From: Oceaniferula marina
Lineage (GTDB): Bacteria > Verrucomicrobiota > Verrucomicrobiia > Verrucomicrobiales > Akkermansiaceae
Assembly: GCF_013391475.1 (NCBI RefSeq)
Contig: NZ_JACBAZ010000004.1
Coordinates: 1-64,000 of the forward strand
Direction: 5' to 3'
Length of the DNA: 64,000 nt
The first letter of the stretch is position 1. Each line of letters begins with the position of its first letter. A model generated the notes under the pieces. It was not told where the DNA came from. It was given only the letters and a program-made list of their open reading frames with translations, and did no database searches. Shown here piece by piece: positions 13,389 to 32,210 of this stretch. Position numbers and translations under genes: made by a program.

Positions 13389-13927
13389 ACAATGTTTTAA
13401 TATAATACATCGTATGCGCCCACAAAATAACAGCGATTTTACAAAAAGTGGATCATTGAAGGCTGACGAGCCCGAATCACTTCTATACCAAGTAGCAAAA
13501 CAGACGGGACGATTGCCGAGATAAATTTCTGTTTTGGCAAGGCGCGACGATGGAATGGTGCGGGCACCATGACTGAGGAGAAACGCAGCCAGAACAGAAA
13601 TTTATCCGGAACTCTGGTAGACCACGAAGTGCATTTCCTCACAGCCTTAAAACTTTCAATCGTCTCGTCTGTTTTGCGGAGTGGTATTATACAAAACAGA
13701 GAACCCTTTTGGCATGCCGCTCCCATACCCGCATCTCCGGTTCAACGGTAGATCGCCCTCAATAAGCTTCACCACTGGAATCATCTGCAAAAAATCTCAC
13801 CTTTCATCCCTTGCCACGATCATCACGCAGGGACATATTCCTTAAAACTTCTTTCCTGAAAAAACGCCGATCATTTGCAAGTTTGCGAATGCCCTTAAGG
13901 TAATACATCCACACCATCACCCCACTC
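13389..13927. other. intergenic region between divergent genes, occupied by element copy 1
   Basis: Apart from the 203-bp element the stretch has no supported gene. The AT-rich part near 13395-13420 (TTTTAATATAATAC) is a likely promoter zone for the sulfatase operon, but I cannot place its hexamers with confidence. Confidence 0.5.
13485..13687 (+). mobile_element. 203-bp inverted-repeat element, copy 1 (MITE-like)
   Basis: Starts ATACCAAGTAGCAAAACAG and ends CTGTTTTGCGGAGTGGTAT, so the outer about 29 bases form an imperfect terminal inverted repeat. Inside, a second inverted repeat (GATAAATTTCTGTT and AACAGAAATTTATC) encloses the palindrome ATGGTGC-GG-GCACCAT. It sits between the divergent sulfatase operon and the phosphatase gene. 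It is the most diverged of three copies in the window, all exactly 203 bases between ATACCA and GGTAT. Flanks are CTA and TTA. No transposase is encoded. Confidence 0.8.
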
Positions 13928-15260: not shown

Positions 15261-16208
15261 ATGAGCAAAGCCGTAAACATCACATCCCATCTGCTGCATG
15301 GCCCATGGGCCGGCAAGCATGAAGGATGCTGGAAAAGCCGCTTTCCCAATGTCTGGCTTGCTGTGCTCCAGCTCTGCACCACGCTTACCCTCCTTTCCCG
15401 TGGTTGGCTGATGTTTCGCTGGGACAGCCATATCCGGGGCCTCTGCTGGAACGAAGAGTTGCTGACGCCGTGGATCGAACAATACACGGACTCCAGCTGG
15501 GATGATTATGCCCTTCATTCCGATCCCTATATCACCAGCAGCATCGAATGGCTGGGGATCACACTCATGATCATCAGTGGTCTCTGTCTACTTCTCCGTG
15601 TTCCCAAATTGGCATGGCTGAAATGGAGCCTCGTCCCCGCTTTCCTCATCATGACCCTGGACGCCTTTGGCAATCTTGCAGACAAAGATTACGACGCGGC
15701 GATGGCGATGGAATACGCCTTGCAAGTGGGCACCCCACTGGCCCTGCTCATGGCACTGACACGACACAAGTGGAATAGAACCTGGGGCTGGATCGTCAGC
15801 CTGTTGGCTGCCTCCTGCTTCCTTGGCCACGGACTCTACGCCGCAGGGCACTTCCCGCTCCCTTGGAGTTTCCAGACAATGAGCATGACCATCCTTCGCG
15901 TTGATGAGGAGCAGGCGAAAGCATTCCTCTACCTTGCAGGCGTGCTCGATTTCATCGTAGCCGCAGCCATTCTGATTCCTGCGCTACGGAGACCCGCACT
16001 ATACTACATGATCCTATGGGGAGGTGTGACCAGCCTGGCCAGAGTGCTGGCCCACTATAACCCGGCCCTGAAATACAACGGTCTCGACCCTTGGGTAGCT
16101 GAAATGCTCGTTCGGTCTTCCCACTGGCTCCTCCCACTCCTCATACTCGCCTTGTTACCGTCTTATACCAAGCAGTCAAACAGACGGGACGATAGCCGAG
16201 ATGAATGA
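15261..16208 (+). CDS. integral membrane protein of unknown function, C-terminus supplied by element copy 2
   Basis: 315 residues with about eight hydrophobic helices (for instance around 30-48, 95-113, 118-135, 150-165, 178-195, 220-245, 247-262, 282-300). The start at 15261 lies 22 bases after the phosphatase stop. I do not recognise the family. The last 13 residues (TKQSNRRDDSRDE) and the stop codon are encoded by the first 42 bases of the 203-bp element beginning at 16165, so the original C-terminus has been replaced or extended by the insertion. The membrane part seems complete. Confidence 0.75.
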   Translation: MSKAVNITSHLLHGPWAGKHEGCWKSRFPNVWLAVLQLCTTLTLLSRGWLMFRWDSHIRGLCWNEELLTPWIEQYTDSSWDDYALHSDPYITSSIEWLGITLMIISGLCLLLRVPKLAWLKWSLVPAFLIMTLDAFGNLADKDYDAAMAMEYALQVGTPLALLMALTRHKWNRTWGWIVSLLAASCFLGHGLYAAGHFPLPWSFQTMSMTILRVDEEQAKAFLYLAGVLDFIVAAAILIPALRRPALYYMILWGGVTSLARVLAHYNPALKYNGLDPWVAEMLVRSSHWLLPLLILALLPSYTKQSNRRDDSRDE

Positions 16209-16367
16209 GTTCTTTGGTAAGGCGCGACGAAGGAATGGTGCGGGCACCATGACTAAGGAGAAACAAAGCCAAAGGAGTCATTCATCCGGAACTCTCATGG
16301 ATCACGCAGTGCTTTTCCAAATACCTCAAGAACGATCAATCGTCTCGTCTGTTTTGCGGAGTGGTAT
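16165..16367 (+). mobile_element. 203-bp inverted-repeat element, copy 2
   Basis: Same ends as copy 1 (ATACCAAGCAGTCAAACAG ... CTGTTTTGCGGAGTGGTAT) and the same length. The internal arms read GATGAATGAGTTCTTTGG and CCAAAGGAGTCATTCATC, a sequence different from copy 1 but again self-complementary in 16 of 18 positions. The central palindrome ATGGTGC-GG-GCACCAT is unchanged. It is flanked by TTA on both sides. It begins inside the 3' end of the membrane-protein gene. Confidence 0.82.
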
Positions 16368-16441
16368 TATCAGAGAGAACGCGATCACGACCCATCAACG
16401 CAATAAGTGAGCCCCATCAAGCTGAGCAGCGAACGGCCGAA

Positions 16442-31874: not shown

Positions 31875-32002
31875 AGGGCATCACCGCCATGCGGCTGTCT
31901 TGCGACCCCTTGCTCAACTGGCACCTCCCCTGCCCAACTGGCACCCTTTCACCTCAAACATCTTGGAAGCCGCTCCTCCAAAATAGCCGTTCAAATGGCG
32001 TT

Positions 32003-32205
32003 ATACCACTCCGCAAAACAGACGAGACGATTGATCGTTGTTGAGATATTTGGAAAAGCACTGCGTGATCCATGAGAGTTCCGGATGAATGACTCCTTTG
32101 GCTTTGTTTCTCCTTAGTCATGGTGCCCGCACCATTCCTTCGTCGCGCCTTACCAAAGAACTCATTCATCTCGGCTATCGTCCCGTCTGTTTTACTACTT
32201 GGTAT
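32003..32205 (-). mobile_element. 203-bp inverted-repeat element, copy 3 (reverse orientation)
   Basis: Read on the minus strand it is almost identical to copy 2: ATACCAAGTAGTAAAACAG at one end and CTGTTTTGCGGAGTGGTAT at the other, with the same internal arms and central palindrome. It is flanked by TTA on both sides. It starts five bases beyond the stop of the DUF3820 gene, so like copy 2 it sits at a gene's 3' end. Confidence 0.82.
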
Positions 32206-32210
32206 TACGT

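Follow-up and report, generated by a model that had tools for sequence, protein, structure and literature searches.

Three repeats in the 64,000-nucleotide stretch of Oceaniferula marina DNA analysed here (the window) are copies of a non-autonomous transposon that is present in about 70 copies in the genome. By our reading they represent a new MITE family with a previously undescribed structured module, a 94-nt hairpin whose role we infer from its pattern of conservation. We consider it likely that the family is built in two layers, an IS5-type shell moved in trans and, within it, a fold of the + strand that is maintained by selection.

Copies and boundaries of the element

All three copies reported by the first-pass annotation are present where it placed them (Table 1). 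They are equal in length, as it had claimed, but the length is 201 bp (TACCA...TGGTA) rather than 203 bp (ATACCA to GGTAT): the outer A and T are part of the duplicated target, so the earlier ends have to be moved inwards by one base each. The shell ends are terminal inverted repeats of the form TACCA(N5-6)AAAACAGACG..., and the flanks noted at that stage, TTA on both sides of copies 2 and 3 and CTA/TTA at copy 1, were read correctly; the duplication has the general form TNA.

Table 1 Features of the three copies in the window (positions numbered from its first letter) and of elements at other loci
Feature	Position	Strand	Evidence or remark
MITE copy 1 (minor subfamily), TACCA...TGGTA, 201 bp	13486..13686	+	sequence, ends, subfamily comparison
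MITE copy 2 (major subfamily), 201 bp	16166..16366	+	sequence, ends, subfamily comparison
MITE copy 3 (major subfamily), 201 bp	32004..32204	-	sequence, ends, subfamily comparison
CTA, left flank of copy 1	13483..13485	.	decayed target duplication, TTA on right side
TTA, right flank of copy 1	13687..13689	.	
Target duplication TTA, left of copy 2	16163..16165	.	
Target duplication TTA, right of copy 2	16367..16369	.	
Target duplication TTA, left of copy 3	32001..32003	.	+ strand letters
Target duplication TTA, right of copy 3	32205..32207	.	+ strand letters
Structured module of copy 1	13516..13609	+	model R1, 110 bits; covariation
Structured module of copy 2	16196..16289	+	model R1, 105 bits
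Structured module of copy 3	32081..32174	-	model R1, 105 bits
Mini-hairpin CAC-GAA-GTG of copy 1	13623..13631	+	
Mini-hairpin CAC-GCA-GTG of copy 2	16303..16311	+	
Mini-hairpin CAC-GCA-GTG of copy 3	32059..32067	-	
IS4-family IS	L147:1757-3162 (G000:C1 about 391.56-392.96 kb)		ends CATTGGCGTCAAAATAAG..., 430-aa transposase, ~10-bp duplication
Chimeric elements	L217:2710-2794; L223:1057-1152; L229:2318-2411		

The genome examined comprises 5.07 Mb in 88 contigs, with the window on contig C4; the Akkermansiaceae MAG JARFRT01 is a relative from the same genus. A core pattern of the element matched 68 genomic sites and a right-end pattern 81, against none for the reversed control of either. TACCA...TGGTA ends are present in 65 deduplicated copies, and identical 3-bp TNA sequences flank 49 of the 63 that could be scored (TTA 24, TAA 19, TCA 4 and TGA 2), the ends having been assigned by script and by eye and being uncertain for several decayed copies. 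Because one copy is nested in a 205-bp repeat, F2, at locus L022, an exact empty site is available: removal of 201 bp together with one TTA leaves F2 intact, which fixes the insertion boundary by the kind of comparison that the first-pass annotation had proposed. Tandem and nested copies are both seen in the genome. Copies lie most often between convergent genes (28, versus 9 between divergent ones), as expected of tolerated insertions.

As had been noted, no transposase ORF lies within the 201 bp. Identity is 98% between copies 2 and 3 and about 84% between either of these and copy 1, in line with the earlier description of copies 2 and 3 as near-identical and of copy 1 as diverged. The accompanying suggestion that spread was both old and recent fits two subfamilies, one of about 11 copies resembling copy 1 and one of about 55 resembling copies 2 and 3, which are each about 97-99% identical internally and 84% identical to each other. 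Terminal inverted repeats, a 3-bp duplication, the lack of a transposase gene and the many copies together bear out the assignment to a MITE family. The family had also been called possibly undescribed; this holds to the extent that Rfam, plasmid and phage collections and open-licence papers gave no match, and the covarying inner module had been overlooked.

Several rearranged forms accompany the complete copies. Half-elements in which the tip hairpin (ATGGT...ACCAT) is used as if it were a terminal end occur at three loci (L041:1707-1828, L097:723-797 and L032:1708-1780), the L041 example being flanked by a matching TGA duplication. Other TACCA-ended MITEs lie at an identical TAA (TNA) within the conserved core of the element (L121:3260-3475, L128:1585-1805 and L130:1548 onward), and chimaeras combine the left half of a fourth family (TACCAATGAGGAAAAG...) with the right half of repeat family F3 or of the TACCA family, the joint lying at the conserved core. 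Derivatives of about 100 bp without the inner hairpin (L039:1714-1810, L114, L134:2075-2171, L136-L137, L139-L140 and L049) probably arose by slippage across the hairpin. We considered and rejected the idea that they form a propagating subfamily, because their several different junctions make deletion in place likelier; if they also transpose, the module would be dispensable in cis.

Contigs end within or beside the module in this genome (G000 C4, C13, C16 and C21) and in G048 and G098, so copy numbers from draft genomes are probably underestimates. Many matches 14-20 nt from contig ends had raised the suspicion of a longer autonomous element; the complete copies proved to be MITEs of 205-216 bp, which suggests that assembly breaks inside the hairpin. 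Solo right ends, considered as termini of a larger transposon, were left-truncated or short and had no ORF.

A covarying fold kept on one strand

Inside the terminal repeats, the module forms a 94-nt hairpin that consists of a 22-bp covarying stem, an asymmetric and near-invariant internal loop (CAAGGCGCGACGAAGGA ... GACTGAGGAGCAACGCMG) and a 6-bp tip hairpin. Fold z-scores are -6.6 and -10.1, and RNAalifold predicts the same stem unaided. Among sequences from this and related genomes selected with BLAST only, an alignment that is gapless once a tip insertion in G043 and one base in G006a are removed, two-sided changes occur at 14 pairs, in 34 cells versus 14.4 in shuffled and 5-16 in slid controls. 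A larger set of 73 distinct sequences has 635 two-sided changed cells, versus 174 ± 11 when shuffled and at most 182 when slid, with compensated changes at 28 of the 29 module pairs; this set was gathered with the covariance model R1 and its count leans towards the model, a bias from which the BLAST-selected set is free. Unpaired module positions are more conserved than paired ones (mean 1.35 versus 0.68 bits), and AAC and other loop bases are invariant in all 74 module sequences. No Rfam 15 family reached threshold for the module or the element, permissive searches included.

The pairs also indicate which strand folds. With three weak pairs set aside, well-paired positions contain 121 G-T cells versus 16 A-C cells, and at one position of the module U-G or G-U outnumbers every other pair. 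A G-T cell read on the opposite strand becomes A-C, so it is the element's + strand that has been kept foldable. A second, short hairpin follows the module on its right; a C(GNA)G triloop with a stem of at least 4 bp is present in 21 of 64 elements, versus 0.1 in shuffles.

Copies are also oriented non-randomly in the genome. In 50 of the 65 copies, the element's + strand is aligned with negative GC skew (p = 1.6e-5; 49 of 64 on recount), and among copies in other genomes this orientation prevails by 44 to 23 (p = 0.02, from short flanks). Gene direction was rejected as the cause, as tandem contexts divide 13 to 11. A general tendency of ISs to be oriented with respect to replication is reported by Gomez et al. 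(2014), cited in PMC4549789, and the bias alone does not therefore point to the module.

One module in several shells

Model R1 finds 87 places in the O. marina genome, including the repeat families F2 and F3, which were outside its training set. Within the Verrucomicrobiales, 93 of 387 genomes, from 27 of 50 genera, contain the module; four genomes outside the order match more weakly, and in three of these the module is recognizable on reading. It sits in MITEs with at least five terminal types other than TACCA, the shell that duplicates TNA. The sister shells are GAGACTGTTGAAAA/CAGCCTGTTGAAAA, with duplications TTAA, CTAG and TTAG; GGAAGCGCTGATTA, with CTAG (L197 and L206); TGTGGTGATCGGCA and TGTCCCGCGCGGCA, both with CTAG; ACCGCTTCTCAAAA, with CTAG; and AACCTGTTTGGATA, with (C)TTAG. 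All these duplications, TNA included, are targets of the IS5-superfamily type. Other phyla were covered through plasmid, phage and viral collections and one exact-pattern genome scan, and the collections held no credible match to the element or module. A similar motif in Proteobacteria was considered and not borne out, as the matches on Sphingobium plasmids cover 29 bases at E=3.

For one of these shells an IS5 partner is present. Locus L301 holds an intact 1.2-kb IS5-family IS that has the same two slightly different ends as the GGAAGCGCTGATTA shell, CTAG flanks and a 339-aa transposase (IS5_4 model score 326 bits, cut-off 140). This IS carries no module, and the module is thus not merely a remnant of it.

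The enzyme that moves the TACCA shell is most likely an IS1031-like member of the IS5 superfamily, an assignment that we base on the target and the sister shells. Within the IS5 family, the IS1031 group is characterized by duplicating a 3-bp TNA target (PMC12016507), and the TACCA MITE makes such a duplication; the ends quoted for the group in that paper (GAACCTGTC... and GAACCTGT) are unlike TACCA ends. No IS1031-group IS with matching ends was found among the loci examined, nor any IS or transposase with TACCA ends in the O. marina genome or in the examined loci of 14 related genomes. The O. marina genome has no PF13340 transposase; it contains a relic IS5-family transposase (L155; NCBIfam IS5_3) and one intact IS4-family IS. 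The relic (L155:1400-1815) and an IS5_3-type IS at L299:1132-2018, which is flanked by TAA, have GAGGCTGTCTTAAAAA ends and are candidate relatives of the mobilizing enzymes. The IS4-family IS interrupts the left end of three MITE copies at an identical spot (L147, L011 and L037), and thus seems to target the MITE end; it had been considered as a partner because it lies next to copies, and we regard it as an intruder.

What the module may be and why it matters

In the two-layer reading, a transposase supplied in trans would cut the terminal repeats of the TACCA shell and join them into a TNA target, generating the 3-bp duplication, and each of the other shells would likewise be moved in trans by an IS5-superfamily transposase. 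Selection would keep the module able to fold as a specific single strand, namely the element's + strand. As it occurs in unrelated IS5-type shells, its benefit should be independent of the mobilizing transposase; our guess is that the folded strand may bind a conserved host factor and that the element thereby spreads or persists better. The folded molecule may be RNA from read-through transcription, which we place slightly ahead of single-stranded DNA at the replication fork. More tentatively, and with somewhat less than even confidence, we propose that the 94-nt module, as structured RNA or single-stranded DNA, could itself be a mobile unit that is passed between unrelated IS5-type shells across the Verrucomicrobiales and beyond, acting through a common host or trans factor.

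MITEs are often palindromic and fold well, and the hairpin deletions, core-joined chimaeras and nested copies are ordinary rearrangements. The element could accordingly be an ordinary MITE with a functionless inner palindrome, a by-product of long inverted repeats whose arms were homogenized by template switching. We think this unlikely, because homogenization of the arms would leave unexplained the invariant unpaired loop bases, the reproducible non-canonical pairs, the excess of G-T over A-C and the recurrence of the same module in shells with unrelated ends. Structured RNAs in transposon shells are known from HEARO/IscB and TnpB, and the conservation of the internal loop is RNA-like; it is nevertheless very unlikely, given the empty Rfam searches and the lack of an associated ORF, that the module belongs to a known class of guide-type or regulatory RNA (HEARO or omega RNA, riboswitch or ribozyme) missed by the Rfam models.

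Single-stranded DNA enters two further readings. Y1 transposases make no target duplications, and the 3-4 bp duplications, together with ends that are inverted repeats, a short hairpin with no GTAG tag and a main hairpin of 94 nt, render it extremely improbable that the element is REP/RAYT-like or otherwise moved as single-stranded DNA by an HUH transposase through hairpin recognition, even though short palindromic hairpins are present here and REP dimers occur in palindromic shells in other bacteria (PMC3733652). It is possible, if rather doubtful, that the folded molecule is single-stranded DNA and that + strand hairpins at forks or in a transposition intermediate recruit replication or priming proteins, which would set the orientation of insertion. 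The orientation of copies against GC skew, with no bias in tandem gene contexts, agrees with such a role, and the C(GNA)G triloop is that of d(GCGNAGC), an extraordinarily stable DNA mini-hairpin (PMC4686876), which leans towards DNA and against RNA. Against it, the frequent U-G or G-U pair and the tolerance of G-T elsewhere are typical of RNA, the usual rule of a G-rich leading strand does not make the + strand the exposed template of the lagging strand, and ordinary ISs are orientation-biased as well, according to the citation above.

Among the closest known systems are the MITEs of the IS5 superfamily (IS1031 group, TNA; IS5 group, YTAR), which are likewise short, intergenic and multicopy, with inverted-repeat ends and no ORF, and which share the duplication, TNA for the TACCA shell and CTAG, TTAG or TTAA for the sister shells. 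Correia/NEMIS, ERIC, RUP and QMITE2 elements resemble the TACCA MITE in their 100-200 bp size class, strong hairpin folding and terminal repeats, and differ from it in ends and targets, the target of ERIC, Correia and RUP being TA. To our knowledge, none of these structured bacterial MITEs has been described with one covarying module common to differently ended shells. REP elements (GTAG and CGTC families) are also multicopy hairpins nested in larger palindromes (PMC3733652), but they measure 20-40 bp and have a terminal tetranucleotide tag, whereas the TACCA MITE has a 94-nt hairpin with an asymmetric internal loop and a shell that duplicates its target. HEARO/IscB and TnpB omega RNAs are further cases of structured nucleic acids on transposons, and differ in structure and insertion chemistry from the module, which has neither an Rfam match nor an associated ORF.

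MITEs are usually viewed as empty shells that keep only what the transposase needs. A covarying, strand-specific fold that is kept while the shell changes implies selection on something besides the ends, and poses a testable question: what benefit does a non-coding module bring to a non-autonomous transposon? For the annotation of Verrucomicrobiota, model R1 provides a new family of structured nucleic acids, carried by about one in four of the genomes sampled from the order.
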